The notes under the pieces were generated by a model, which did not search any database, was not told the DNA's origin, and worked only from the letters and a program-made list of their open reading frames with translations. This document shows positions 21,087 to 34,465 of a DNA stretch of 34,743 nt, one piece after another. Source of the stretch: Candidatus Cloacimonadota bacterium (lineage in GTDB: Bacteria; Cloacimonadota; Cloacimonadia; Cloacimonadales; TCS61); assembly GCA_021735645.1 (NCBI GenBank), contig JAIPGP010000035.1, forward strand, positions 1-34,743, given 5' to 3'. Within the stretch, counting starts at the first letter, position 1, and each line of letters begins with the position of its first letter. The translations under genes and the position numbers were made by a program.

Positions 21087-21120
21087 GAGTTTTTTTTTAC
21101 ATAATGTAATTGCTGCTTCA

Positions 21121-21182
21121 TTGTATGCTACCATCCTGGTCTTGAAGTATTTAAATCCCAGAGCAGGATGCTCGCATACAAT
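21121..21182. repeat. REP/BIME-like inverted pair
   Basis: The forward copy TTGTATGCTACCATCCTGGT plus CTT (21121-21143) and a reverse copy whose complement reads TTGTATGCGAGCATCCTGCT plus CTGG (21159-21182) face each other. Each has its own short palindromic core (ACCA-TCC-TGGT; AGAGCA/TGCTC) with matched base changes in both arms, and the pair together forms a longer imperfect hairpin. Related copies are at 23253, 30553, 30764 and 34439. Confidence 0.65.
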
Positions 21183-21236
21183 AACTATCCTGATACCTTT
21201 AGAGCATTTTGAAACCACTTATCATTTTAATTTCGT

Positions 21237-21277
21237 GGGGATACCAATTAAATTTATACAGGTATCCCCTTGTTTTT
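21237..21277 (+). terminator. Candidate rho-independent terminator
   Basis: Stem GGGGATACC (21237-21245) pairs perfectly with GGTATCCCC (21261-21269) over a 15-base loop, then TTGTTTTT. It may close the SEC-C protein operon, although it is 150 bases past the last stop. Confidence 0.7.
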
Positions 21278-21357
21278 ATTAGTTTTCCGCACTCACATGC
21301 TTAGTGGTTTTTCCTGATTGGCTTTTTATTGGTGAACATAGTGGACGGGGTTATGGT

Positions 21358-21393
21358 GTCCATTTTGTCAATTATGTCCATAGTGTCCATAAA
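21358..21393. repeat. Nonamer tandem repeat, GTCCATNNN type
   Basis: Four in-register 9-base units: GTCCATTTT, GTCAATTAT, GTCCATAGT, GTCCATAAA. A reverse-oriented unit (CATAGTGGAC) lies just before, at 21337-21346. It has the same phase and GTC lead as the arrays at 18771 and 30669, but a different tail. Confidence 0.65.
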
Positions 21394-21495
21394 GGGATGT
21401 TCTGGTGGGCAGGTAAATTAAATAATTGACTTGCGGAGTGGGTTGATAAAAAAGTAATTATCGAAACAGGATTAAATATAAAAAGGATATAGATA

Positions 21496-22245
21496 ATGAG
21501 AATATTACTGACAAATGACGATGGCATCGACGCTCCAGGGATCAATGTATTGGGCAGACATCTGGCTGAAGCAGGTCATGAGATTACTTATTGTGCTCCC
21601 CAGACACAGCAGAGTGCTGCTTCACACTCTATAACTTTGCACGCACCTGTGCGTCTATTTAAGCATAACGAAAACAGGTATTCAGTCGCGGGTAAACCAA
21701 CTGACAGTGTTTTGATCGCTTATCACCTTTTTGGAATAGAAGCCTTTGATCTGGTGATTTCCGGCATCAATCAGGGACAGAATATGGCAGAAGATATTTT
21801 GTATTCGGGAACGGTGGCAGCAGCTATAGAAGCCAGTTTTGTAGGGTACCGTTCAATTGCAGTTTCTGTAACCAGCTTCACTGATGTGCGTTATGATACT
21901 GCAGCCGCTTATCTCTGCCGTCTGTTGAAAGCCGGACTGGCAGATCAGATACGGCCAGAGGAAGTGCTTAATATCAATGTTCCGAATGTGGAAATTGACG
22001 CTATCAAAGGCGTGAAGATCACTCATCCCGGACATAGGCATTATGAGAATTTTGTCACGGAGATCAAGGCACCTCGCAATAATATGCTCTACTGGATTTC
22101 CGGTGACGTGGTCTGGGCAGAAGATAAAGATGCCGATACGGCAGTGATTCAGGAGAATTATATCTCGATCAGTCCTATCTATCCTGATTTCAGTAAGAAA
22201 CAGGCACATCAGCGTTATCAGGACTGGTTAAAAGAGAATAATTAA
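21496..22245 (+). CDS. surE: 5'/3'-nucleotidase SurE
   Basis: 249 residues, usual length. MRILLTNDDGIDAPG at the start carries the metal ligands D8 and D9; SAASHSITLH, SVAGKPTDSVL and SGINQGQNMAEDILYSGTVAAA are the other hallmark blocks. SurE is a divalent-metal-dependent phosphatase acting on nucleoside 5'/3'-monophosphates and short polyphosphate, linked to stationary-phase survival. AAAAGGA precedes the ATG. The DUF368 gene follows after 19 bases. Confidence 0.97.
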   Translation: MRILLTNDDGIDAPGINVLGRHLAEAGHEITYCAPQTQQSAASHSITLHAPVRLFKHNENRYSVAGKPTDSVLIAYHLFGIEAFDLVISGINQGQNMAEDILYSGTVAAAIEASFVGYRSIAVSVTSFTDVRYDTAAAYLCRLLKAGLADQIRPEEVLNINVPNVEIDAIKGVKITHPGHRHYENFVTEIKAPRNNMLYWISGDVVWAEDKDADTAVIQENYISISPIYPDFSKKQAHQRYQDWLKENN

Positions 22246-22264
22246 AAGGCAGCGGTAATATATT

Positions 22265-23215
22265 ATGAAGTATATTATAGATTTGATCAAAGGCTTACTG
22301 ATCGGTGTGGCAAATATTATTCCCGGCATCAGCGGTGGCACTTTTGCCTTGATATTGGGGATATATGAGCGTCTGATAAATGCAATTGGCAATATTGATA
22401 TTGAATTTGTCAAAGAGCTGTTTTCCCGCAGGATCTTAACTGCACTTAAAGGCATCGATTTCTGGTTTCTAGTGCGGATTTTCCTGGGAGCTATCATCTC
22501 AATTGTCCTGCTTTCCCGGGTAATAGAATACTTTCTGGAACAGCAGCACGATTCCACTTATGCCTTTTTTATTGGCTTGATCATCCCTTCGATAGCCGTA
22601 CCCTGGAAGATGATGCAGCGACGCAAAACGCCCGAATATATCTGGTTTATGGCGGGAGTAATATTCCTGCTGGCACTATCGATCGGCTTTGGTCATTTAA
22701 ATGATCAGAAGCTGGAAATCAAGGCTGAGGCAGAATTGCTGACAGCGGTTGATATTCACAGTGCCTGGCAGCTCATCTTTGCTGCACTCAGTGGAGCCCT
22801 GGCAATCAGTGCCATGATTCTGCCGGGTATCAGTGGATCATTTGTGATGCTGCTTTTAGGTCAGTATAAAAACATGGTGACTGCTATCAATAATCGTGAC
22901 CTGATCTTTATTGCTGCTCTGGGAATCGGAATGGCATTGGGAATCATCATGTTCACCAGACTATTGAATATGCTGCTTAAGAAATTTCATTCACAGACAA
23001 TCGCCTTTTTAATCGGATTGATGATCGCTAGTTTATATACATTGTGGCCCTTTAAGAAAGTGATTGAGCAGGGTGGAGAATTATATCATACCTCAGTAAA
23101 CATCATGCCGGAGCCGGGCAGCAATCTCTGGATTTCTTTGCTGTCATTTGCAGTAGGTTTTTTTATTGTCTGGATATTTTTGAAAACGGAAAAGAGTATT
23201 AATCGTGAGTCGTGA
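22265..23215 (+). CDS. DUF368 membrane protein (polyprenyl-phosphate translocase, PopT type)
   Basis: 316 residues, eight to nine membrane segments. The family motif appears twice, once per half: NIIPGISGGTFALILGIYERLI near residue 18 and MILPGISGSFVMLLLGQYKNM near residue 185, showing the internal inverted-repeat build of the family. DUF368 proteins have been identified as undecaprenyl-phosphate flippases that recycle the lipid carrier of peptidoglycan and O-antigen precursors. The last codons and stop (R-E-S-TGA) are made by a CGTGAGT heptamer repeat (23201-23226), so the natural C-terminus may have been altered. Co-transcribed with surE. Confidence 0.9.
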   Translation: MKYIIDLIKGLLIGVANIIPGISGGTFALILGIYERLINAIGNIDIEFVKELFSRRILTALKGIDFWFLVRIFLGAIISIVLLSRVIEYFLEQQHDSTYAFFIGLIIPSIAVPWKMMQRRKTPEYIWFMAGVIFLLALSIGFGHLNDQKLEIKAEAELLTAVDIHSAWQLIFAALSGALAISAMILPGISGSFVMLLLGQYKNMVTAINNRDLIFIAALGIGMALGIIMFTRLLNMLLKKFHSQTIAFLIGLMIASLYTLWPFKKVIEQGGELYHTSVNIMPEPGSNLWISLLSFAVGFFIVWIFLKTEKSINRES

Positions 23216-23226
23216 GAAGTGAGTCG
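23201..23226. repeat. Heptamer tandem repeat overlapping the DUF368 stop codon
   Basis: Three in-register 7-base units CGTGAGT, CGTGAGA, AGTGAGT (23204-23224) begin inside the DUF368 gene; the stop TGA at 23213-23215 lies in the second unit. The same units occur at 30410, 30463, 34234 and 34404. Confidence 0.75.
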
Positions 23227-23252
23227 GAAACTTGACAGGTTATGGTGGCAAT

Positions 23253-23280
23253 GCGTAACTAGACCACTCTGGTCTGGATT
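23253..23280. repeat. REP-like palindrome, single forward copy
   Basis: TGCGTAACT is followed by AGACCACTCTGGTCT (23261-23275), a 6-bp stem with a 3-base loop, then GG. The flank-plus-palindrome order equals the complement of the copies at 30553 and 34439. A lone perfect TTGACA sits at 23232 without a -10. Confidence 0.65.
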
Positions 23281-23355
23281 TCTAACTCATAACACCTAGC
23301 TAAATTGAAAAAGTGATTTTAAGAAAAGAAAATTAAAGGATAAGAGGAGTACAAA

Positions 23356-24291
23356 ATGCGAAGAGTTACCCTGATCATAGCTTTATTGATGTTATTGAGC
23401 AGCTGCTCAAAGCAGGTATCAGAAGTTGTGGAAAAATATGACAATGGTAACTGGAAAAGAGTTATAGTTTATCAGGTGAAGGGAGACCAGCGTAAGAAAC
23501 TGAAAGTTGTTGATTACTACGAGAATGGCGAAGTGAAGCAGGAAATAGACCTAAGGAAAGTGAAAGATTATTCCGCGAATAAAGTTGCAGAAAAACAGGA
23601 ATCCGAAGAACCTGAAACCGCTTCCGGAAACCCGCCGGCACCTGAACAACAAATCGAATATCAGGGTCCTTATGCTGATATGATGAACCAGCCTGGAGCA
23701 GTGACGCGTAAACTGGAAGGTGAAGAAAAAGAACGCGTGCTGGAAGCCATGCGAAAACGCAAGGAAGAGCAGGAAAAAGGTGAAGAATTCACCGAACTGG
23801 ATGAGGATGGTGAGGAAGTAACCAAAATACGCCAGGTGATGGAACGCTTTGAAGATGGCAGCATAAAACATGAACAGATATTTATCAAAACAGAAACCGG
23901 AGCAGATCTGGAAAAGGATATCGAGTATTATGCTAATGGTCAGGTTCGGACTTATGTACCCTATACTGCCGGTATCGGTAATGGTAAATGGCTGAATTAC
24001 TATCGAAATGGTCAATTGAAAACCGAAGGCTATTCACGCAATGGCGAGCACCACGGGGAATATACCCAATACTATGAGAATGGCAGCCCTATGATGAAAG
24101 GACAATTTAAAGCCGGAAAGATGGATGGACTATGGGAATACTATTGGGAAAATGGTAATAAGAAAATGCAGACGACCTTTGCTGATGATAAAGAAATAGG
24201 ACCTATGCAGCGTTTTGATGAAAACGGTGAACCGATTAAACATGAATCGCCCTTCCGCGTAGGCGAAAAACTCAATTTAAATGGTAATTAA
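23356..24291 (+). CDS. Lipoprotein with MORN-type (YwqK-like) repeats
   Basis: 311 residues. A lipobox (LMLLSSC, C17) follows a short signal sequence, so signal peptidase II should process it to a lipoprotein. Low-complexity charged sequence (about 65-150, rich in E, K and P) separates an N-terminal repeat (YDNGNWKRVIVYQ, YYENGEVKQEI) from a run of MORN_2 units (YYANGQVRTYVPY, WLNYYRNGQLKTEGYSRNGEHHGEYTQYYENG in part, WEYYWENGNKKMQT). Such proteins are often auto-named 'toxin-antitoxin system YwqK family antitoxin', but there is no toxin gene here. AGAGGAG precedes the ATG. The stop overlaps the next ATG (TAATG). Confidence 0.88.
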   Translation: MRRVTLIIALLMLLSSCSKQVSEVVEKYDNGNWKRVIVYQVKGDQRKKLKVVDYYENGEVKQEIDLRKVKDYSANKVAEKQESEEPETASGNPPAPEQQIEYQGPYADMMNQPGAVTRKLEGEEKERVLEAMRKRKEEQEKGEEFTELDEDGEEVTKIRQVMERFEDGSIKHEQIFIKTETGADLEKDIEYYANGQVRTYVPYTAGIGNGKWLNYYRNGQLKTEGYSRNGEHHGEYTQYYENGSPMMKGQFKAGKMDGLWEYYWENGNKKMQTTFADDKEIGPMQRFDENGEPIKHESPFRVGEKLNLNGN

Positions 24292-25748
24292 TGCAATATA
24301 AATACCTCGCTCAATTTGCCCGGGAAAACAATGATCCCGGGCTTTTTTACAGATCAGTCAGCCGCTGGCGTGATCAGTATGCTATCACCTTCAGTCAGGG
24401 TAATTTTCTGCAGATCAGCCTCATGCAGCAAGACCCCTTTTGCTTCTTTACACAGCAGGGACTTATCGAATGGGGAGATGCTCCCGAACTGGCAATGATG
24501 CACCAGCATCTGAACAGAGCACGGCTGGACAGCATTTCCTGCTCGGAAACAGACCGGATTATCCGGCTGAATTTTTCTAAGCCTGATCCCTTTCAGGGCA
24601 GACAGGAATTTCACCTGATACTGGAACTTATCCCTCAATTTGGCAATATTATCTTAACCCGCAAAGACGGCAATAAACAGATAATTATCGATTGTGCCAA
24701 AAAAGTGAGTCTGGCAGAAAACCGGCAGAGACAAATATTACCTGCCGTGGAATATGAGCCGCCACCAGTGGGATTTATCAATGAACAGGCGGATGTGCAA
24801 TATCCGGTAGGTTTTGGCACAGACATGCGGGTGATAGAGAATTCTGCCGCGGGTTTTGATAATATGAACCAGCTTCTGGAAGCCTGCTATTATGAGGGCT
24901 GGCTGCAAAAACTGAGTGACCAGAATCTACGCAGCAGCAGGGAACAATTGATCTCTGAGCAGAAAAAAAAAACCGGCAAGCTGCTGAAACTGCAGGCGGA
25001 GCTTGCTGAGGCAGAGAAACAGTCCAAATGGCTGCAAATGGGAGAATTGCTGAAGGCAAACCAGCAGCAGATAAAAGCCGGCAACACTCAGATAACGCTG
25101 ATTAATTATTATGACCCTGAGATGAGCAGTATCGATGTTAAGCTGCAGGCAGATAAATCTGTGCAGTGGAATATCAATTATTATTTCAGGAAACATCGTA
25201 AAGCAAAAACGGGGAAGATCATGATCGCTGAGCAGATAGCTATCACAGAAAAAGAAATTGCTGAGATAAAGCGAAAACTGACTCAACTGGCAGAACTCAA
25301 TCTATTACTGCCAGGTGAAAAACTGCAGCATGTAAGCGGTAAAAATCCGGTGCTGGAGAATGTAACCCGTCTGGAAATTGATGATAACTGGCAATTTCTG
25401 ATCGGCAGGAACAGTACGGAAAATGACCTGATAACTACGCGTATTGGGCGACCACAGGACTGGTGGTTTCATACCCGCATCTACAAGGGTACCCATGTGG
25501 TGCTGCGTAATCTGCAAAAGAAAGAACTCCCGGAACACCTGATGCGATTAGGCTGCAGGATAGCAGCTTATTTCAGTAAAGCCTCCAAATCAAGTAATGT
25601 GCCAGTGGATTATACGCAGATACGCTACGTTCGCAAGCCCCGGGGCAGTGCTCCTGGCTATGTGATCTATACTAACCAGAAGACCTTATACGTTGACCCT
25701 CTCAGCCTGCGTGATGCCCGTAAGGAAATAGAGTCATGGGAGAAATAA
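24291..25748 (+). CDS. RqcH/NFACT-family ribosome quality-control protein
   Basis: 485 residues, shorter than the usual ~570. The NFACT-N part keeps the tRNA-contact D-R pair (D88-R89 in ETDRIIRLNF) and the ELIPQFGNIIL block, but the usual first residues (the 'D...l..l..EL' opening) are missing or diverged. A coiled-coil arm (about 210-255 and 315-340) is followed by the NFACT-R domain from about 365: FLIGRNSTENDLITTRIGRP, DWWFHTR, GTHVVLR, YFSKASKSSNVPVDYTQIRYVRKPRGSAPG (in part). RqcH binds obstructed 50S subunits and adds C-terminal Ala tails. It may also have been annotated as fibronectin-binding protein; that is a family legacy name. Overlaps its neighbours on both sides (1 and 13 bases). 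Confidence 0.92.
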   Translation: MQYKYLAQFARENNDPGLFYRSVSRWRDQYAITFSQGNFLQISLMQQDPFCFFTQQGLIEWGDAPELAMMHQHLNRARLDSISCSETDRIIRLNFSKPDPFQGRQEFHLILELIPQFGNIILTRKDGNKQIIIDCAKKVSLAENRQRQILPAVEYEPPPVGFINEQADVQYPVGFGTDMRVIENSAAGFDNMNQLLEACYYEGWLQKLSDQNLRSSREQLISEQKKKTGKLLKLQAELAEAEKQSKWLQMGELLKANQQQIKAGNTQITLINYYDPEMSSIDVKLQADKSVQWNINYYFRKHRKAKTGKIMIAEQIAITEKEIAEIKRKLTQLAELNLLLPGEKLQHVSGKNPVLENVTRLEIDDNWQFLIGRNSTENDLITTRIGRPQDWWFHTRIYKGTHVVLRNLQKKELPEHLMRLGCRIAAYFSKASKSSNVPVDYTQIRYVRKPRGSAPGYVIYTNQKTLYVDPLSLRDARKEIESWEK

Positions 25749-26626
25749 GCGAACTGCTCAATTGCCGGATGTGTCCGCGCGAATGCGGCGTAAACCGCTA
25801 TCTGCAAACGGGCTTTTGCCGCATGGGCAGTGAACTCAAGATCAATACCTGGCAGAAACACTTTGGCGAGGAGCCGTTTGTTTCCGGAACGCAGGGCAGC
25901 GGCACGATCTTCTTTTCCGGCTGTAATCTTTCCTGTCTGTTTTGCCAGAACTACCTGATCAGTCAGCTTGGTCACGGCAAAGAATATTCCATTGCTCAAA
26001 CTGCTGATATTATGCTGCAATTACAAAATGAGGGTGTGCATAATATCAATCTGGTCACTCCAACCCACTTTAGTTTGCAATTGCGGGAAGCTCTGTTGCT
26101 TGCCCGGAAACAAGGACTAACTATCCCAGTAGTCTGGAATACCAATTCTTATGAGAATGTGGAAATGCTGAAGCGTCTGGAAGGCTTGGTGGATATCTTT
26201 CTGGCAGATTTCAAATATGGCACTAATACCGCAGCAAGCAAATATTCACAGGCAGATAACTACTTTGATATAGCTGCCGCAGCAGTGAACGAAATGCTCC
26301 GTCAGGTAGGACATATCAAGCTGGATGATGATGATATTGCCCGGAAAGGCTTGGCTGTGAGGCTGCTGGTACTGCCGGAAGATGCAAACAGCACAGAGTT
26401 CATACTGCAATGGCTGGCAGAAAATATTGGTAATGATCTCTATATCAGCCTGATGTCACAATACTATCCCACCTGGCAGGCAGCGAAATATCCTGAAACT
26501 GCCCGTAGTTTGAATACGGAAGAATATGAAGCAGCTGTAGAACTGGTGGAGAAATATAACTTTGAGAATTGTCTTATCCAGGAGCTGTCACCTTCAGCGG
26601 ATTGGACTCCTGATTTTACTATCTGA
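25736..26626 (+). CDS. Radical SAM protein, PflA-like (COG1313)
   Basis: 296 residues. The radical SAM cluster motif is C63-x3-C67-x2-C70 (SGCNLSCLFCQNY). Upstream, C10, C13, C17 and C28 (NCRMCPRECGVNR, FCRMG) form the extra cysteine set typical of this pyruvate-formate-lyase-activase-related group, which may bind a second metal or cluster. NLVTPTHFS and VVWNTNSYE, LADFKYG and SQYYPTWQA match the family. The substrate is unknown. It overlaps the RqcH gene by 13 bases, so translation is coupled; the link between the two is not explained by known biology. Confidence 0.9.
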   Translation: MGEISELLNCRMCPRECGVNRYLQTGFCRMGSELKINTWQKHFGEEPFVSGTQGSGTIFFSGCNLSCLFCQNYLISQLGHGKEYSIAQTADIMLQLQNEGVHNINLVTPTHFSLQLREALLLARKQGLTIPVVWNTNSYENVEMLKRLEGLVDIFLADFKYGTNTAASKYSQADNYFDIAAAAVNEMLRQVGHIKLDDDDIARKGLAVRLLVLPEDANSTEFILQWLAENIGNDLYISLMSQYYPTWQAAKYPETARSLNTEEYEAAVELVEKYNFENCLIQELSPSADWTPDFTI

Positions 26627-26650
26627 CCAGAATAATTCCCATTTAAAATT

Positions 26651-26899
26651 CTAATCAAATAAGCCCATTTGAAATACACTGATCAGGGTTCCCCACATCA
26701 GAATTACCGCAACATAACCAATTACCTGTAATAAAAGCCATGCTTTCGCCCAGTTCGCTTTACACACCGGTGTGCTCCGACTGAATGCCCACATCAATAG
26801 CGATATTATCCCCACAAAAGGTATCGAAGATATTATCAGCGTTAGCATCCATTCACCCATCGTCATCTCATGATCTGATCTGCTATCATAATTTTCCAT
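26651..26899 (-). CDS. Small two-helix membrane protein
   Basis: 82 residues with AAGGAG before the ATG. The order is acidic N-terminus (MENYDSRSDHEMTMGEW), one hydrophobic segment (about 19-42), a cationic loop (SRSTPVCKANWAKAW) and a second hydrophobic segment (about 55-75). The 'W.L.L......P..N/G.I..L.WAF......K.N.A.A' pattern is common in an unnamed small membrane protein family. Convergent with the radical SAM gene; function unknown. Confidence 0.78.
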   Translation of the reverse strand: MENYDSRSDHEMTMGEWMLTLIISSIPFVGIISLLMWAFSRSTPVCKANWAKAWLLLQVIGYVAVILMWGTLISVFQMGLFD

Positions 26900-27017
26900 A
26901 CAATTCTCCTTATTTAACCGCTTGATTACCCATATTTATATTACAACCAAATCATCAATCCCCCCCACTCAACTGTCAATCCCTTTATTTCCCCTCTCTT
27001 TCCAAACTTCAATATCT

Positions 27018-27040
27018 CCCATTACCCCCCCCACCCACCC
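27018..27040 (-). other. Potential G-quadruplex (minus strand)
   Basis: The plus strand reads C3-ATTA-C8-A-C3-A-C3, so the minus strand has four G runs of at least three with loops of 1, 1 and 4 bases. It lies in the spacer between the two divergent genes at 26899 and 27061; another C7 tract is near 26960. Confidence 0.5.
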
Positions 27041-27060
27041 GTGAGTCCTGTGACTGGAAG

Positions 27061-27330
27061 GTGGCAGGTAAAGATTTTCTGTCTGCCTGGCAGACTTATC
27101 AAACCAGATGGCTGGAGAATCATTTCAGGAAAATACGCAAAGCTACTGGTATCCTGCATCTATGGACAAGTATCGTGATGAGGGCAGCCGTAGAACTAAG
27201 CTTTGATCTGGAGCATCTGGCACCGGATAACTGGCTGCCGGAAATCGAGACACTCGGTGATCTGGTAGAAGCAGCAGGCTATATCCGCTATGGCGTCAGC
27301 GATAAAGTGTGGGAACAGGAGATATACTGA
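27061..27330 (+). CDS. Small orphan ORF, possibly a gene remnant
   Basis: 89 residues starting at a GTG; amino-acid composition looks protein-like (W, L, R and E rich, with FRKIRKATGILHLWTSIVMRAAVELSF forming probable helices). There is no usable Shine-Dalgarno: GGAAG abuts the start, and the upstream sequence is C-tract and a CGTGAGT repeat unit. The reading frame stays open upstream through this non-coding-looking sequence. It could be a real small cytosolic protein or the 3' part of a broken gene. No family recognised. Confidence 0.4.
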   Translation: MAGKDFLSAWQTYQTRWLENHFRKIRKATGILHLWTSIVMRAAVELSFDLEHLAPDNWLPEIETLGDLVEAAGYIRYGVSDKVWEQEIY

Positions 27331-27339
27331 ATTCAAGCT

Positions 27340-27434
27340 ACCTCCCGGATGGTTGGAAACCTCCGGGATGGTGGCGACCATTACACCCAGCTTCCGAAGA
27401 CAACCATGCCGGAGGTCAAGACCATCCGGGAGGT
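27340..27434. repeat. Nested inverted repeat of four 14-mers
   Basis: The 14-mer ACCTCCCGGATGGT (27340-27353) and a one-base variant (27359-27372) are followed by inverted copies at 27403-27416 (one mismatch to the second) and 27421-27434 (perfect complement of the first). Both pairs nest and can fold into one long hairpin with a roughly 30-base apical loop. It sits between the orphan ORF and the 3' end of the M55 peptidase gene. Confidence 0.75.
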
Positions 27435-27495
27435 GTTAGTTGGGTGACCTTTCATTTTTTCATTCCACCATCTTAAGGGTCTTTTTCATGCGCAG

Positions 27496-28317
27496 CTATT
27501 TGTAATAATTCTTTACAGCTGAAGAGACCATGACACAGGTCATGAGGTATTGATACATTTCCAGGGGATTACGGCAGGTTATGCTGATACTGCGCGGATT
27601 AACTGCTTTCACACCGGGTATCATCTGGACAGCATAGCCTATATTGGTATCAGCAAGGTCTATTTCCAGAACTATTTGTGATGGTACTTCCAGTAAGCAG
27701 GGCGAATATTCTGTGATGCTTTTCCCGGTCTGATATAGCTCAGAGAGCAATTGCTGATAAGGCTTGAATTGGGCAGCATATCGGGCGATAATATTTTTGC
27801 TGGATAGATATTTTAGTTGAGTACAGAGATTTTGCTGCATCCATTCTTTCCCGACATCATCTGTGTAAACAAACAGCAGTGGAACACCAAAATGTGCGGC
27901 TATCAGGGCATTGATATTTGCTTCTGCAACTTCCTGTCCGTTGATTCTCACCTGATAAAAACTGCTGGATGAATATGTGTGATCCATATTACCTGCCTGA
28001 CCAATTGGGGCATGGTAACCCATAAAGATCACTCCGTCATAGCTGCGGTCTATCCCTTCCATCATATAAAGCTGACGGGGATAGCCACTGATCAGATATG
28101 TATTGCCAACCAGCTTTTCATAAATTATATTGTTACCATCTCCATGGGAATCGCATAATACTACTTCAGCGTCAGGCTCTGACTCATAAACACCTTTCAG
28201 AAAAGCATTGATCTGCTCCGTTATCAATTCATTATAGCGGCTGCTGCCAATTGTCTGCTTCCAATTGCACACACCACCCATTCCTTCATAATCAAATGAT
28301 ATAAATAGCTTTTTCAT
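27496..28317 (-). CDS. M55-family D-aminopeptidase (DppA-like)
   Basis: 273 residues. SFDYEGMGG gives the zinc ligands D9 and E11; CDSHGDG (H58), MGYHA (H102), MDHTYS (H113) and NGQEVAEAN (E129/E132) match the remaining metal and catalytic positions of B. subtilis DppA. These cytoplasmic decamers release N-terminal D-amino acids from short peptides, often peptidoglycan-derived. AGGAG lies upstream of the ATG. It stands alone, divergent from queC; no Dpp transporter genes are next to it. Confidence 0.92.
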   Translation of the reverse strand: MKKLFISFDYEGMGGVCNWKQTIGSSRYNELITEQINAFLKGVYESEPDAEVVLCDSHGDGNNIIYEKLVGNTYLISGYPRQLYMMEGIDRSYDGVIFMGYHAPIGQAGNMDHTYSSSSFYQVRINGQEVAEANINALIAAHFGVPLLFVYTDDVGKEWMQQNLCTQLKYLSSKNIIARYAAQFKPYQQLLSELYQTGKSITEYSPCLLEVPSQIVLEIDLADTNIGYAVQMIPGVKAVNPRSISITCRNPLEMYQYLMTCVMVSSAVKNYYK

Positions 28318-28458
28318 AATTAATCTCCTGATACCAGGATCACATTTTAGCTGATCATAAGCAAGAAATAAATACGATTCCTGCCAGACATTAAAAAAAT
28401 ACTTGCTAAATATGCTCAGCTTAAATCGTGTATCCTAAAAAGATACAAAGAGAGTGAT

Positions 28459-29127
28459 ATGAAAGGAATAATACTTTTATCAGGCGGAATGGACAGCCTG
28501 GTGACGGCTGCTATTGCTGCCGGGGAATGTGAGGAGATATATTTTCTGCATGTGAATTATGGACAGAATACTCAGCAGAAAGAACTGGAATGCTTTAATA
28601 AGCTGGTAATACATTATCAGCCAGCCGGGACTTTGGTTACTTCTATTGACTATCTGCGACAAATAGGAGGTTCCAGCCTTACTGATGATGATATTGCCGT
28701 TACTGATCACCAAAATACAGATCAAATAACCAGCAGCTATGTGCCATTCCGGAATGCTCATCTATTGGCGATAGCAGTTTCCTGGGCGGAAGTGATTCAC
28801 GCAGATCAGATTTATATCGGAGCAGTTGAAGAAGATAGCTCTGGTTATCCTGATTGCCGGGAGAGCTTTTATAATGCCTTTCAGAAGGCAATCAATCTGG
28901 GAACGGCAGATGATACTAAAATAGAAATTATCACTCCTGTGATACATCTCACAAAGCCAGAGATCATTCGCAAAGGAATTGAACTGAAAGCTCCTTTTGA
29001 ATTTTCCTGGAGCTGCTATCGTGAAAATGAGATTGCCTGTGGTACCTGTGATAGTTGCGTATTGAGATTGCAAGCCTTCAAAAAAGCTGGAATAGAAGAC
29101 CCTCTGCCCTATAAAGTAAGGCTGTAA
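28459..29127 (+). CDS. queC: 7-cyano-7-deazaguanine synthase QueC
   Basis: 222 residues. The PP-loop SGGMDS is at 8-13 and the C-terminal zinc site is C186, C194, C197, C200 (CYRENEIACGTCDSC). It converts 7-carboxy-7-deazaguanine plus ammonia and ATP to preQ0, the precursor of queuosine. AGAGAG precedes the ATG. I looked for a preQ1 riboswitch in the leader and saw none. The stop overlaps the trmFO start (TAATG). queH at 4132 supplies the last step of the same pathway. Confidence 0.96.
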   Translation: MKGIILLSGGMDSLVTAAIAAGECEEIYFLHVNYGQNTQQKELECFNKLVIHYQPAGTLVTSIDYLRQIGGSSLTDDDIAVTDHQNTDQITSSYVPFRNAHLLAIAVSWAEVIHADQIYIGAVEEDSSGYPDCRESFYNAFQKAINLGTADDTKIEIITPVIHLTKPEIIRKGIELKAPFEFSWSCYRENEIACGTCDSCVLRLQAFKKAGIEDPLPYKVRL

Positions 29128-30428
29128 TGAAAAAGATAAATATAATTGGAGCCGGAATGGCTGGCTCAGAAGCAGCTCTGCAGTTTGCGGATGCAGGCTG
29201 GCAGGTTAACCTTTATGAAATGCGTCCTGATGTAACTACTCCAGCACATGAAACGGGTAATTTTGCCGAGCTTGTCTGTTCAAATTCTTTGAAATCGTCT
29301 CTTATTTCTACAGCTTCCGGTTTACTGAAAGCTGAGATGGAAATGCTGGGCTGCAAGCTGCTGCCTTTGGCTGCCCAATGTACCGTCCCTGCAGGAAATG
29401 CTCTGGCGATTGACCGTGATAAATTTGCTGAGCTGATAACTGCTACTATCAATGAACATCCACATATCAAAGTGATCAGGCAGGAAGTTACGCAGCTTCC
29501 CGAGAATCTGACGATCATTGCCACAGGACCTTTAACTTCAGATGCTCTTTTGAAAGCCTTATTGCCATTTCTTCCTCAGGAGCACCTTTATTTCTTTGAT
29601 GCCATCGCCCCTATTGTTTCTGCTGAAAGCCTCGATTATGACATTGTTTATCGCAAAACACGCTATGATAAAGGTGAAGCTGATTACTTGAATTGCCCCT
29701 TCACAAAAGCTGAATACTACCAGTTTGTGGAAGCTTTAAATGCAGCAGAAAAACATACAGCACATGAATTTGAAAATGAGTTCTTTGCCCAGATAAACTT
29801 CCAGTTTTATGAGAATTGTACTCCGATCGAAGAACTGGCAAGAAGAGGAGCAGAAACACTCCGATTTGGTGTCATGCGACCGGTTGGGCTGGAAACACTC
29901 GCAGGAGACAGACCTTATGCTGTATTGCAATTGCGGACCGAAAATAAGGATTTTTCGTCTTATAACCTGGTCGGCTGCCAGACCATGCTGCGCTATCCTG
30001 AACAGAAAAAGATATTCAGACTGATACCCGGCATGCAGCAGGCAGAATTTCTGAGGTATGGCTCTATTCATCGTAATACATATATAAATTCGCCCCAAAT
30101 ACTGAGCTCTGATTTAAACTTGCCAACGCTGCCTGAGCTTTATTTTGCAGGACAGATCACGGGATTGGAAGGTTATACAGAATCTATCTTTGGAGGTTTA
30201 TTAAGTTTCCTGATCATAGCAACCGGGCTCAAAGAACTGCCGGAAACTACAATCAGCGGACAATTATGGCGTCATCTGCAAACTGATGTGAAGAATTATC
30301 AGCCTATGAATGCAAATTTTGGGATTCTGCCACCGCTTAAGGAAAAGATCAGAGATAAAAAAATGAAGAAACTCGCACTTAGCGAAAGGGCTTTGCAGGA
30401 TTTGAAAATCGTGAGACGATCTTCGTGA
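29127..30428 (+). CDS. trmFO: Methylenetetrahydrofolate-tRNA (uracil-54-C5)-methyltransferase TrmFO
   Basis: 433 residues, typical. FAD-binding GAGMAGSEAA is at 8-17, followed by YEMRP, ELVCSNSLKS (Cys important for catalysis) and NCTPIEELARRG. The C-terminal GQITGLEGYTESIFGG is also diagnostic. It makes ribothymidine (m5U54) in the T-loop of tRNA, using methylene-THF and FADH2. Coupled by one-base overlap to queC, forming a tRNA-modification operon. The last codons (V-R-R-S-S-stop) come from the heptamer repeat block 30410-30437, so the C-terminus may be recently changed. Confidence 0.96.
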   Translation: MKKINIIGAGMAGSEAALQFADAGWQVNLYEMRPDVTTPAHETGNFAELVCSNSLKSSLISTASGLLKAEMEMLGCKLLPLAAQCTVPAGNALAIDRDKFAELITATINEHPHIKVIRQEVTQLPENLTIIATGPLTSDALLKALLPFLPQEHLYFFDAIAPIVSAESLDYDIVYRKTRYDKGEADYLNCPFTKAEYYQFVEALNAAEKHTAHEFENEFFAQINFQFYENCTPIEELARRGAETLRFGVMRPVGLETLAGDRPYAVLQLRTENKDFSSYNLVGCQTMLRYPEQKKIFRLIPGMQQAEFLRYGSIHRNTYINSPQILSSDLNLPTLPELYFAGQITGLEGYTESIFGGLLSFLIIATGLKELPETTISGQLWRHLQTDVKNYQPMNANFGILPPLKEKIRDKKMKKLALSERALQDLKIVRRSS

Positions 30429-30476
30429 GTCGTGAGAGGAAATGTAAAACCAAAACCAATATCGTGAGTCGAAATG
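30410..30476. repeat. Heptamer-phased repeat overlapping the trmFO stop codon
   Basis: Units CGTGAGA, CGATCTT, CGTGAGT, CGTGAGA run in 7-base register from 30410; the trmFO stop (30426-30428) lies in the third unit. A shared tail (GAAATGTAAAACCAAAACCA) follows, then another CGTGAGT-CGAAATG block at 30463-30476. The block at 34234 has the same order. Confidence 0.75.
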
Positions 30477-30552
30477 TAACCAATACCTCCCAGCTAAGCA
30501 GGAGTTTTGAACTGAACTCAGGACAAGACTTCTGGCGACCGTGAATACTACT

Positions 30553-30579
30553 CAGAGCAGGGATGCTCTGGTTACGCAG
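30553..30579. repeat. REP-like palindrome, single reverse copy
   Basis: CAGAGCAGGGATGCTCTG (7-bp stem, 4-base loop) followed by GTTACGCAG. The same 27 bases recur at 34439-34465, and the palindrome alone at 30807. Confidence 0.8.
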
Positions 30580-30668
30580 CCCCTCCCTGCACACCTTCGC
30601 ACTTTCGAATCTTCGCACCTTCGCATATCAATGGTTGCGACCAGTTGCTGCCCAGGTTTCACTTTTAT

Positions 30669-30720
30669 GTCCACTACGTCCTCTGAGTCCACTATGTCCA
30701 CTACGTCCACTGTCCACTAA
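30669..30720. repeat. Nonamer tandem repeat, GTCCACTAN type
   Basis: Units GTCCACTAC, GTCCTCTGA, GTCCACTAT, GTCCACTAC, a 7-base GTCCACT, then GTCCACTAA. Five full nonamers in near-perfect register. Confidence 0.8.
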
Positions 30721-30763
30721 TTCACCACTACCCACAACCAGACTACGATTACATGAAGCTCCC

Positions 30764-30830
30764 CTGCGTACACTGACCATCTTGGTCTGATTACATTTCT
30801 TAAACTCAGAGCAGGGATGCTCTGGATACG
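30764..30830. repeat. REP/BIME-like inverted pair
   Basis: A forward copy CTGCGTACACTGACCATCTT plus GGTCTG (core GACCA-TCT-TGGTC, 30775-30787) is followed about 19 bases later by a reverse copy CAGAGCAGGGATGCTCTG with GATACG (30807-30830). This is the same head-to-head arrangement as at 21121-21182. The pair lies directly downstream of the T9SS cargo gene. Confidence 0.7.
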
Positions 30831-30885
30831 TAAAAAAATAAATCACTCTGATAAGGGCGGTTCGTTGATTAAAGAGGAAAGAGAT

Positions 30886-33800
30886 TTATTTCATCAGAAT
30901 CAGCTTCTGAATCTGCTCTGTTCCACTTGCAGTCATTTTCACAAAATAAATACCACTTGCCTGACCGGCTGCATTCCACACTACACTGTGCTGTCCTGCT
31001 TCCTGACTGCTATTTACCAGTTCTGCCACTTTCTGTCCTTTGAGATTATAAACTGCCAGGTTTACATTACCAGTTTCTGAAATCTGATAAGCGATAGTTG
31101 TTTCTGGATTAAAGGGATTAGGATAAATTGTGTTCAGTTTAGTAACCAGTGGTATTTCAGATATACCATTATTAGTAACTTCAAGCTGGATACTGATTAT
31201 ATCTGAGCTGCCATCAATATATACCGCTTCTACACCAAATTCGTGAAATCCGGTTTCACAGCTTATCACAGCTAAAGTATCAGTGGTGTTTTCATAAAAA
31301 ACACTATCTAAATAAATATTATAATTCAATTCAGGGTAATAAGCAGAAGGTACCAGCCAGGATAATTCAATGTTACCATCATATAAGTTCACTGCCTGTA
31401 ATTCTCTCACCTCATCATCATTGATGGTAATTAGAAGACTGTCTCTGCTTACTAATCTATTCTGAAGATCATCCACCGTAAGATAAATCATTTCTGAAAC
31501 AGTATTATCACACTCAGCAACTGAAAATTCAGCAATTTCTGACTCCGCATTAACTATGGTAACATAATCACCAGCCTGCCATAAAAATGATAGTGTTTCA
31601 CTGTCAATATCATATGTAGAACTTGCATCGAGAGTACCTGATTCTCCATCTCTGATTATGATATCTTCTCCTGCTTCCGGAACTGGCGGATCATTCACAG
31701 GACTCACATTTACCAGAAGTGAATCTATGCCTTCCAGACGAGTGCGATTATCTGAAATTGTAAATGTGATCATTTCGCTGCCAAACCAGTTACTATCAGG
31801 TATAATACTTACTTCCAGATCATCAATTCCGATGGTAATATTATCTGAGCCAGCAGAGTAAATCTGCAGATCATCACCATTTAGATCATTAGAATAAATC
31901 GTAAAATCGACTAACAACTCAGTATCTTCCTCTAAATCAAAGCTATCCGGCAGAGTGAGTGATGGCGGGAAATTCTGATATAATACGGTAATGGTCAGCT
32001 CATCAGACTGACTATTCATTTCAGGATCAGTTACCTGCAGACTCAGAACATATTGCGTATCTTCATCCACTACAGGTGCTGTAAATTCTGGAGTAATAGA
32101 ATTTACATCATCCAGAATTATTTCAGCGGGAGTATCCCAGAAATATTCCAGCTCTCCCCCATCGGGGTCCCAGGATTGTGAACCATCTAAAATCACCTGT
32201 TCTCCTGCTGCTATGGTGATATCATCACCTGCTATTGCCTGTGGGGGATGATTTGTAAGCCCTACATCATTTATCACTACTAAGCCCGGTAATGGTGGAG
32301 CAAGCAGCAGTCCATTATAAACAGCGAAGATTCCATCTATCTCTGTTTCACCATAACATCCTGCCTGAAACCATAGTTTAAAAATTGAACCTTCACCAAC
32401 CAGCGGTAAATAATGCATATATGTAATCTCTATCTGGGCAGGATTTGTTTCTTCATTTACTTCACAATTCACAATTCCACCAGAAGCAATAGTTCCTTCC
32501 AGGCTATGCCCGAAATATTGCAGATAATAAGGATCATATTCCAGAAATATCTGATATGTTGAAACTGACCAATGCTCAAAGACTTCACTTGTATTCAGAT
32601 CTATTTCCAGATAATCACCATCGTCTGCAATCTCACTGCTTATTTCAAGAATACTGTCTTCCAGCAAAAAACAGTTTACTGTAATAGTATCCATGCGAAC
32701 TATCCTGGCGGTTTCATCATCAACAGTAAAAACTACATCTTCTGTGCCATGCCAAGAGTTTATTGGTGTAAATTCCACTAAATAATCTACTATTTCAATG
32801 CTCATATTTTCGGATTCAGCAGTTATTGCCAATTCAGTATTATCCACATCATTGATATAGGTCGAAATATCCCATTCCTCTGGCAGATCAGCAGCAAAAG
32901 TGAAATATTCCGGTAGATTAATCTCTGGTGCATCATTAACCGGGTTATAAGTGATCATTATACTATCCATCACAGTTCCAGTCTGGTCAAATACGCTGAT
33001 CACAGCACTCTCGGTTCCATACCAGTCTGCAGCAGGAATAAACCTGATCTGTCCATCAGCTATCAGCATACTAATATTATCCAGACCATTGGCAGAAATT
33101 GTCAGAGTGTCATTTTCCACATCATAGATAACCTCAGATATCAATAATACTATTTCCTCATCCTCATCATATACCAATACTTCAGGAAAGGTTAATTCCG
33201 GCAGATCATTTACTGCTATCACGCTGATCTCCACATTTTCTACTGTTATTTCCCGATATTGCCAATCTTCTGCCGTTAATGTAACTACTTCTTCCCCATT
33301 CCAGTTCAAGGGTGCAGATAATTCCAGCATACTACCAGTCAATTCACAAATAATCTCGGTATTTCCACTAATACTGAAGCTGAGGCTGTCTCCTTCAAAA
33401 TCGCCAGAATAATCCATAAGCTCTATACTCAGATTCTCATCTTCTGCAAAAAAGAATCCCTCCACCGGAAAATCAAATACCGGCGAGTGATTAGGATACA
33501 CTTCCACAGTCAAAGAATCAACTGCAATCGACCGTGAATTATCATCCACCATGATATAGATCATTTCTGAACCAAACCAGGAGCCATCCGCAGAAAACTG
33601 CAAAACCATTTCAGCAATTTCCACCTCTATTTGCTCATTTCCTTCCACTTCAATGATATAATTATCATCCCAGAGATAACTGATATATGCCGAAAGATCA
33701 AATAATAACCCATCATAATACCTGAAACCTGTTTCATCCGGCAAATCTAATCTCACTCCCAGAATCATGCCCCCATTTTCAATATCAAATGTCTGGATAT

Positions 33801-34128
33801 TCTCACCATCAAGCTCATATTCCATCATAAACCATTCTTCTGCCAGATCATCAAACACTTCCACATGAAGAGTATCACCTGGATTCCAGACAGCAAAAGA
33901 ACCACAATTTATATGCAAATACACATTAAAAGCTGGATAATAGCAATCAGTACTACTCAAATCGAGTATTGTGTTTGGGTGTCCTAATCTCCAGGCTTGA
34001 AAACTTAACCCTTCTGGATCAGGTAGATTTCCCAAGGAAGTCTGCAATTCAATCAAAACTGGATGTGGTGGTGATGCAAATATACTTGTTGCTAATATTA
34101 ATAATAATAAAATGTTGAAAATTCTCAT
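30886..34128 (-). CDS. T9SS-sorted surface protein with cadherin-like, cohesin-like and PKD-like modules
   Basis: 1080 residues. A signal peptide (MRIFNILLLLILATSIFAS) is followed by tandem cadherin/tandem-95-like repeats (each with NDxPxxxxPE, DxENDxLxIS and W.G.E..... words, about 215-480). Next is a cohesin-like segment (about 493-600: STYQIFLEYDPYYLQYFGHS, GGIVNCEVNE, SIFKLWFQAG) and a PKD/REJ-like domain (about 626-714: AIAGDDITIAAGEQVILDGS). More tandem repeats, a second PKD-like domain and an FN3-like domain (about 905-985) precede the T9SS C-terminal sorting domain (from about 1000: IYPNPFNPETTIAYQI, YNLKGQKVAELV, SGIYFVKM, QKLILMK). It should be exported by Sec, moved across the outer membrane by T9SS and anchored. 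No enzymatic motif was seen; it is probably adhesive or scaffolding. Confidence 0.9.
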   Translation of the reverse strand: MRIFNILLLLILATSIFASPPHPVLIELQTSLGNLPDPEGLSFQAWRLGHPNTILDLSSTDCYYPAFNVYLHINCGSFAVWNPGDTLHVEVFDDLAEEWFMMEYELDGENIQTFDIENGGMILGVRLDLPDETGFRYYDGLLFDLSAYISYLWDDNYIIEVEGNEQIEVEIAEMVLQFSADGSWFGSEMIYIMVDDNSRSIAVDSLTVEVYPNHSPVFDFPVEGFFFAEDENLSIELMDYSGDFEGDSLSFSISGNTEIICELTGSMLELSAPLNWNGEEVVTLTAEDWQYREITVENVEISVIAVNDLPELTFPEVLVYDEDEEIVLLISEVIYDVENDTLTISANGLDNISMLIADGQIRFIPAADWYGTESAVISVFDQTGTVMDSIMITYNPVNDAPEINLPEYFTFAADLPEEWDISTYINDVDNTELAITAESENMSIEIVDYLVEFTPINSWHGTEDVVFTVDDETARIVRMDTITVNCFLLEDSILEISSEIADDGDYLEIDLNTSEVFEHWSVSTYQIFLEYDPYYLQYFGHSLEGTIASGGIVNCEVNEETNPAQIEITYMHYLPLVGEGSIFKLWFQAGCYGETEIDGIFAVYNGLLLAPPLPGLVVINDVGLTNHPPQAIAGDDITIAAGEQVILDGSQSWDPDGGELEYFWDTPAEIILDDVNSITPEFTAPVVDEDTQYVLSLQVTDPEMNSQSDELTITVLYQNFPPSLTLPDSFDLEEDTELLVDFTIYSNDLNGDDLQIYSAGSDNITIGIDDLEVSIIPDSNWFGSEMITFTISDNRTRLEGIDSLLVNVSPVNDPPVPEAGEDIIIRDGESGTLDASSTYDIDSETLSFLWQAGDYVTIVNAESEIAEFSVAECDNTVSEMIYLTVDDLQNRLVSRDSLLITINDDEVRELQAVNLYDGNIELSWLVPSAYYPELNYNIYLDSVFYENTTDTLAVISCETGFHEFGVEAVYIDGSSDIISIQLEVTNNGISEIPLVTKLNTIYPNPFNPETTIAYQISETGNVNLAVYNLKGQKVAELVNSSQEAGQHSVVWNAAGQASGIYFVKMTASGTEQIQKLILMK

Positions 34129-34233
34129 AATCTATCCTCATGTACTTTTTTTTTATTTTATTTTGAGTCTTCTATCTGTCAATCTTTGTATTATCTATTT
34201 TTGTATATTTTTTAACTGCGAACAAAACTAAAT

Positions 34234-34282
34234 CGTGAGTCGAGGTTCGTGAGTCGTGAGTCGAAATGTAAAACCAAGACCA
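34234..34282. repeat. Heptamer-phased repeat block
   Basis: Register of seven: CGTGAGT, CGAGGTT, CGTGAGT, CGTGAGT, CGAAATG, TAAAACC, AAGACCA. The last three units recur after the CGTGAGT units at 30431-30459 and (first two) at 34425-34438. Confidence 0.75.
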
Positions 34283-34327
34283 ATTCCTATGTGTTCTCTG
34301 CGGTGAAAAAATCTTCACATTACATTT

Positions 34328-34357
34328 TTCCGTGTAGTCCGTGCTGTTGTCCGTGGT
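34328..34357. repeat. Nonamer-phased repeat, GTCCGTGNN type
   Basis: TTCCGTGTA, GTCCGTGCT, a 3-base GTT insert, then GTCCGTGGT. A related TTCGTG...TCCGTG pair with 10-base spacing follows at 34380-34395. Confidence 0.55.
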
Positions 34358-34403
34358 TAATTACTCTTACATTACATTATTCGTGCAAATCCGTGGCTAA
34401 AAT

Positions 34404-34438
34404 CGTGAGTTGAGGTTTGTGAGTCGAAATGTAAAACC
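34404..34438. repeat. Heptamer-phased repeat block abutting a REP-like palindrome
   Basis: CGTGAGT, TGAGGTT, TGTGAGT, CGAAATG, TAAAACC in 7-base register, directly joined to CAGAGCAGGG of the palindrome at 34439. Confidence 0.7.
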
Positions 34439-34465
34439 CAGAGCAGGGATGCTCTGGTTACGCAG
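34439..34465. repeat. REP-like palindrome, single reverse copy
   Basis: CAGAGCAGGGATGCTCTG plus GTTACGCAG, identical over 27 bases to 30553-30579. It is located just past the terminator of the partial T9SS cargo gene, like the copy at 30807. Confidence 0.8.

Follow-up and report, generated by a model that had tools for sequence, protein, structure and literature searches.

A genome-wide family of repetitive extragenic palindromes with an associated RAYT gene in a Candidatus Cloacimonadota bacterium

Introduction

Several spacers of contig JAIPGP010000035.1, from a Candidatus Cloacimonadota bacterium (assembly GCA_021735645.1; 3.77 Mb in 151 contigs, 95% complete), carry a short palindrome preceded by a GTA motif. 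The contig (C24 of the assembly) was analysed over its whole length of 34,743 nucleotides, to which we refer as the window. The question that this locus raises is whether these palindromes are repetitive extragenic palindromes (REPs), and whether the genome holds a REP-associated tyrosine transposase (RAYT) that goes with them. A preliminary description of the window had proposed a family arranged like the bacterial interspersed mosaic elements (BIMEs) of enterobacteria. Here, we report that the palindrome is dispersed through the genome, and that a RAYT gene of the same genome has the same palindromes on both of its sides. The window palindromes are very probably the REPs of a REP/RAYT system, present as singlets, inverted pairs and arrays (BIMEs, or REP doublets forming hairpins, REPINs). 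No description of REPs for Cloacimonadota or Cloacimonas was found in the literature, in which our coverage of subscription papers was thin.

Results

We built a covariance model, R1, from 30 distinct copies of the palindrome and used it to search the genome. At least 145 copies were detected at E ≤ 0.1, in 61 clusters on 46 contigs; the figure is a lower bound, since 150 of 2968 first-look candidates were scored. The palindrome is thus not restricted to the few copies of the window, and it exceeds the 100 copies per genome by which REPs are recognized. At E ≤ 0.05, 151 copies were found in 54 sources totalling 313,866 bases, namely the window plus 53 further stretches of its genome; 150 of the copies were aligned. 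Read 5′ to 3′, the consensus has a short lead (often ATT or TGC), a foot made of GTA and T, C or A, then CCAGAGCA-TCC(C)-TGCTCTGG and a tail. The foot is GTAT in 103 of the 150 copies, GTAC in 23, GTAA in 17, GTAG in 2 and another sequence in 5. Many of the GTAC copies terminate in ATTACAT, which is a foot on the opposite strand. On contigs C103 and C112 the copies form arrays of alternating orientation, so that inverted pairs and arrays of the BIME/REPIN kind are both present. Two further arrays (L195 and L208) are head-to-tail tandems with a period of 32-33 nt, unlike the alternating ones. These data support the reading of the palindrome as a REP family.

Two stem forms had been described, GACCA and GAGCA. 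Both are real, but they are not the complete set: genome-wide, the main types are GACCA, GAGCA, GATCA and GAGCT, together with an exchange of the outer C-G pair for A-T. The sequence CAGAGCA-n-TGCTCTG was found at 12 places in the genome, one of which, on C131, has no REP-like flanks, and at none in a backwards control. The proposal that the stem is kept by joint changes in both arms was borne out. Among 115 distinct copies, 94.9% of the stem cells pair, and 99 cells are changed on both sides, as compared with 28 in shuffles; with shifted stem partners, pairing is at most 47% and the both-side changes are at most 18. Three base pairs account for most of the paired changes. The central one is C-G 54 times, G-C 37 times and U-A 8 times; at the inner pair A-U is replaced by U-A 20 times, and at the outer pair C-G by A-U 27 times. 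Because R1 itself rewards pairing, we also ran a search that used just the 5′ half and allowed any base at the varying positions. This pattern matched 78 places in the genome (one in the backwards control), representing 47 distinct sequences. In 43 of these the 3′ half matched the arm in at least five of seven bases, and 39 of the 43 were fully complementary (mean of 2000 shuffles 12.5, maximum 20). Of the remaining four sequences, three resemble chance matches and one a broken copy.

A search of the genome with the Pfam Y1_Tnp model identified four places. The gene at C103:487-1077, which scores above the cut-off of this model, codes for a Y1/HUH protein of 196 residues with the motif MPNHVH, and REP arrays in both orientations lie on both of its sides. 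The protein matched NCBIfam REP_Tyr_transpos with an E-value of 3.4e-19. Moreover, its sole match in the PDB at E ≤ 0.01 was 4er8 (3e-8), which we take to be the TnpA-REP protein of E. coli; by these measures the C103 protein is a relative of TnpA-REP, and we refer to it as the C103 RAYT. A sister species of the same genus (G001) has an ortholog that is 74% identical and is likewise flanked on either side by REPs, their cores being those found here. The gene downstream is also shared, and appears from its translation to code for a peptidyl-prolyl-isomerase-like protein. No ortholog was found in the 67% complete genome of another member of the genus (G002), in which 19 REP matches are present. 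These results support the system first proposed, a REP/BIME family with its own RAYT. The window's genome has one full RAYT gene and two partial, more distant matches, and the gene does not behave as the mobile, multi-copy transposase of an IS200/IS605 insertion sequence. A second, partial RAYT, at the edge of contig C14 (L213), carries a different palindrome. At another locus (L020, G000:C42:1-523), a Y1 gene cut by the contig start contains six in-frame, palindrome-bearing repeats of 33 nt. They lie between the HUH motif and the C-terminal part, as for the class 2.4 proteins of PMC6006769.

RAYTs are common in the class, being present in 57 of 124 genomes at E ≤ 1e-20. In a set of 40 genomes that includes the window's own, 26 had a RAYT-like match at E ≤ 0.001 and 7 had R1 REPs. 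Of 30 RAYT-like loci, 23 have repeated hairpins, which differ between most loci, our ortholog pair excepted. Together with the palindrome of L213 and the 33 genomes that have no R1 REPs, these locus-specific hairpins indicate that each RAYT has its own REP family. The R1 REPs of two genomes, G015 and G029, where no close RAYT turned up, count against such a one-to-one relation.

We then placed the C103 RAYT among those of other phyla. As a single query it gave no match in a scan of named genomes; an alignment query did. Of 80 named loci, 7 yielded no usable row. In a tree of 98 rows, from which the class RAYTs L024 and L050 were left out, the C103 RAYT and its ortholog group with L081, from a record titled Candidatus Kuenenia stuttgartiensis (support 99/93), and a locus from a Puniceicoccaceae genome (L094) joins them less firmly (84/92). 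All are inside a 40-row clade (99/96) in which Verrucomicrobiota, Acidobacteriota and Planctomycetota predominate. The 23 other class rows used lie together with Candidatus Tenebribacter mawsonii in a distinct clade of 26 rows (100/99). In the portion used, the RAYT of the latter species (L156) is identical to one (L262) from a genome belonging to the same family as the window's. A wider, quick tree added L024, L050 and other loci of the class (97 rows; only Shimodaira-Hasegawa-like approximate likelihood ratio support; 16 loci omitted for lack of a readable frame; one row, L088, mis-extracted, with a branch of 7.7). It retained the grouping with L081 (93) and L094 (89), set 66 of the 69 class rows across a branch of support 97 from the C103 RAYT, and placed L024 among Bacteroidales RAYTs. 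When R1 was run on 23 of the 80 named loci, matches at E < 0.01 were found in L081 and L094 alone. At L081, REPs of the GTAGCCAGAGCGTCTCGCTCTGG type and related copies lie on both sides of the gene, and at L094 R1 matches lie on both sides if weaker ones are counted. In these two cases the REP type follows the RAYT across phyla, and the pair has apparently crossed between them.

The alternative that survives best is that no transfer took place, and that the C103 RAYT is an old paralog of the class since lost from nearly all other sampled members. The end branches are long, records of metagenome-assembled genomes can contain foreign contigs, and L050, a truncated, long-branch class RAYT of another family, associates loosely with the set of Planctomycetes/Verrucomicrobia type. 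We nevertheless consider an old paralog unlikely. Of the 69 class rows, 66 are placed elsewhere, and the tree supports both the distinct clade (99/96) and the grouping with L081 (99/93). Identity to L081 is 55% over 187 residues, but only 28-37% to the class sequences once the ortholog is set aside (up to 42% locally, across most of the protein).

Other features of L081 were also seen. Its REPs share the stem CCAGAGC/GCTCTGG with those of L021 but differ in the foot, which is GTAG in three of the four listed copies with a GTA foot, as against GTAT, GTAC or GTAA in the window's genome. Furthermore, at L081:969-4559 (DYIT01000002.1) the whole RAYT and its flanking REPs are in frame within one long open frame, with Y1_Tnp at residues 442-496 and matches to Eco57I/MmeI-type DNA methylases at 615-880, resembling an in-frame passenger.

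The evidence on how copies spread is of two kinds. The genes on both sides of the window copy at 23252 align to both sister species, whose spacers lack some 90-100 nt and contain no REP; the difference is the presence or absence of a spacer segment. Elsewhere, identical 33-nt copies stand between unrelated flanks, and they are better evidence for the mobility of the unit than the 23252 spacer. The L204 region, considered as a second empty-site comparison, was not clean. One could suppose that the repeats are passive, spread by recombination or slippage without any nuclease, and that their link to the RAYT is a coincidence of repeat-rich spacers: the spacers of the genus are packed with other short repeats, and some copies belong to longer duplicated spacers (for example L204, L189 and L209). 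We regard this as highly improbable, however, because the same 33 nt recur between unrelated flanks, the REP core tracks the RAYT tree across phyla, and the second, partial RAYT at the C14 contig edge has different palindromes.

With respect to genes, 122 of the 150 copies lie outside greedily called open reading frames (ORFs) of at least 90 aa, and the family is extragenic. Of the 28 inside called ORFs, 23 belong to the arrays L195, L197 and L208, where ORFs and repeats overlap; the remaining five are in L163, L165 (two), L177 and L183. For 25 of the 50 single intergenic copies the neighbouring genes are co-directional, and these copies have no orientation bias (14 in one direction, 11 in the other); the neighbours of 11 copies are divergent and those of 5 convergent, the rest standing at contig edges. 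The REP-free spacers of the same stretches number 25 co-directional, 9 divergent and 10 convergent, and are shorter (median 218 nt, against 516 nt for REP spacers). The preliminary description had left open whether selection acts on DNA or RNA structure. The lack of bias and the 11 copies between divergent genes favour a function at the level of DNA, with RNA fitting less well. Selection of the palindromes in transcripts, as terminators, stabilizers of mRNA 3′ ends or attenuators, would also keep stems by paired changes, and 3 of 65 tested copies stand foot first right after terminator-like hairpins (background 0.9% of positions), but this explanation is scarcely credible for an element that itself has no T-run, is oriented at random, is more frequent between divergent than convergent genes, matches no Rfam family in the window at gathering thresholds, and forms long arrays around a nuclease gene, which it leaves unexplained. 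Targeting of terminators was also considered and rejected, three copies being too small a count.

In E. coli, contacts with the foot include Q95, residue 100 and R104 (PMC6006769, PMC8266576), residue 100 being given as E100 in the former and D100 in the latter. Alignment with 4er8 places H157, N162 and R166 of the C103 RAYT at these positions. We asked how the residue at position 95 relates to the fourth base of the foot, a rule framed after part of the data had been seen. In a discovery set of 110 loci, with feet called in 24, the fourth base was mostly G at 11 loci with Gln and not so at two (L049, and L121, a tie), against 0 and 11 without Gln (p 3e-5). In a new set of 55 loci, with feet called in 20, the corresponding numbers were 4 and 3 with Gln and 2 and 11 without (p 0.12, with the motif of L286 re-read; otherwise 3 and 3, and 3 and 11, p 0.30). 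A wider code linking Q95 to G at position 4 was therefore rejected, as it did not repeat significantly in new loci; Gln loci with other fourth bases are L049, L285, L298 and L309. In a control for descent, only three independent pairs lay on supported branches, which leaves no power (agreeing 1.9, opposing 0.0 on average, p 0.5). His at position 95 goes with a mostly-G fourth base at none of the 14 loci with a called foot: 0 of 6 in the discovery set, two of them orthologs, and 0 of 8 in the new set (p 0.04 for the latter; L293 has GTAG in 2 of 7).

In the window itself, R1 at E ≤ 0.05 and the ORF table together give six clear copies of the 31-33 nt palindrome and one degenerate copy (Table 1). 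The preliminary description had counted at least seven copies in five spacers, and the sequence at its positions is as it described. Six of these are recovered by R1; the seventh, at 21120-21147, is missed by the model, yet together with 21152-21182 it folds into a single long hairpin of DNA (fold of 21118-21185, z = -5.9). The spacers are four, since the copy at 30546 and the pair 30765/30800 share one, and all copies do lie in spacers, as had been stated. In both pairs, 21120/21152 and 30765/30800, the feet are on the outside, which gives the head-to-head, BIME-like arrangement claimed. For five stretches of the window, the single strand gave a better fold than almost every shuffled version (z from -3.2 to -5.9). 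The copy at 30765 ends in ATTACAT and so has the "double foot" form, and that at 34432, read on the minus strand, is immediately behind a terminator-like hairpin and T-run.

Table 1. Palindrome copies in the window
Position	Strand	Feature	Stem	Foot	Basis
21120..21147	+	Degenerate REP, left half of REPIN-like inverted pair		GTAT, outside	Sequence reading; no R1 match
21152..21182	-	REP	GAGCA/TGCTC	GTAT	R1 40.3 bits, E 1.9e-8
23252..23283	+	REP	GACCA/TGGTC	GTAA	R1 34.9 bits; spacer alignment
30546..30578	-	REP	GAGCA/TGCTC	GTAA	R1 36.1 bits
30765..30796	+	REP, left half of inverted pair	GACCA/TGGTC	GTAC	R1 28.9 bits
30800..30832	-	REP, right half of inverted pair	GAGCA/TGCTC	GTAT	R1 42.1 bits
34432..34464	-	REP	GAGCA/TGCTC	GTAA	R1 44.7 bits

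At window positions 23200-23226, 30406-30480 and 34230-34430, and at many other loci, the spacers are patchworks of further short repeats, word-like and dispersed, including CGTGAGTCG, AGTGGACGCAGTGGAC and CACAGAGAGCACAGAG, some of them common to the sister species. One window protein has a Por_Secre_tail sorting domain.

Discussion

According to PMC8266576, TnpA-REP binds one strand of a folded REP and tolerates many stem bases. In three systems, recognition depends to differing extents on the foot, on the loop or bulge, and on whether the stem is paired or mispaired. Cleavage takes place at dinucleotides, and in one of the systems altering the foot can alter these. PMC2817692 states that two inverted REPs flank RAYTs, and that RAYTs and REPs coevolve. 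By analogy with the proteins of E. coli, Stenotrophomonas and Marinomonas, the C103 RAYT, as a Y1/HUH single-strand DNA nuclease, most likely binds a single strand of the REP that has folded into a hairpin. The protein would read the GTA foot, the loop and the pairing state of the stem, ignoring the identity of most stem bases; its tyrosine would cut beside the REP, with predicted strand specificity, and REPs would thereby be copied or moved into spacers. Paired drift of the stem, with GTA and the loop fixed, is the trace expected from such reading of a hairpin, in which pairing counts for more than letters. RAYT and REP type probably arrived as a pair from a Planctomycetes/Verrucomicrobia-like source, a direction of transfer that we infer, at a time before the split between the two sister species that have this RAYT. 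The foot would have lost its fixed G at position 4, perhaps alongside a Q-to-H change at a residue that reads it.

Several observations weigh against this interpretation. The C103 RAYT is below the cut-off of NCBIfam REP_Tyr_transpos (69.2 against 80). Hardly any copies have the canonical GT[AG]G foot (GTAG in 2 of 150), GTA itself being kept. Two genomes with 68 (G015) and 20 (G029) R1 matches yielded no close relative of the C103 RAYT, although the former has a REP array at a contig start (L244), so that the RAYT gene may be missing from the assembly. The grouping with L094 is without strong support, and the truncated L050, of the class itself, loosely joins the same group. The difference at 23252 is a change of some 90-100 nt in the spacer and not a clean 33-nt insertion. 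Finally, the dinucleotides predicted by the published guide-to-cleavage relation (AT, GT and TT for GTAT, GTAC and GTAA) are not enriched in the flanks, being present in 59 of 125 cases on the 3′ side (74.5 in shuffles) and in 69 on the 5′ side (65.8), and that relation was rejected as a visible signal.

A bolder version, which we hold only tentatively and think more probably wrong, is that the pair moved between phyla and that Gln95 then changed to His, freeing the fourth base of the foot, so that GTAT, GTAC and GTAA are served by one fold. The change of Q to H is perhaps the cause of the lost G. If so, the guide code has changed, and by the published guide model the cut sites would be altered too. 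The system offers a natural comparison for how a foot is read, with H against Q and GTA[TCA] against GTAG on the same REP core, and the joint change of RAYT and REP is open to direct test with purified proteins. A complete REP/RAYT system and a second, different RAYT-REP pair are present in one genome of a poorly studied class.

How does this system compare with those already known? It shares with IS200/IS605 elements a Y1 HUH nuclease acting on hairpins, but here the assembly has a single full copy of the gene, and it is the palindromes, not the gene, that are dispersed. The many GTAC copies ending in ATTACAT recall the "double foot" REPs of class 2.4, whose feet are, however, GT[AG]G and C[TC]AC, in contrast to GTAC and GTAA here (PMC6006769). 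Likewise, GTAG families 1-24 have stems mostly of 6-9 bp, short loops, complementary changes, dimers and clusters, and their tag varies at positions 2 and 3 (GYAG, GYRG, GTRG, GTMG, and GTGG in one species; PMC3733652), whereas here it varies at position 4. The likeness extends further to the REP/RAYT systems proper (TnpA-REP REPtrons; the Y and Z REPs and BIMEs of E. coli; those of Stenotrophomonas and Marinomonas): hairpins with a 5′ foot, in more than 100 mostly extragenic copies, as singlets, inverted pairs and arrays, and a Y1 HUH gene flanked by REPs. Several stem sub-types around one RAYT are seen in nearly half of the sample of PMC6006769 as well. Typical REP classes have a GT[AG]G foot, unlike the GTA[T/C/A] foot described here, but the motifs of classes 2.6 and 3 are likewise without it (PMC6006769), and the C103 RAYT differs from that of E. 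coli in having H and N at the positions of Q95 and residue 100. The system is of a known kind, and what sets it apart is its foot, the cross-phylum pairing of RAYT and REP, and the lineage in which it occurs.

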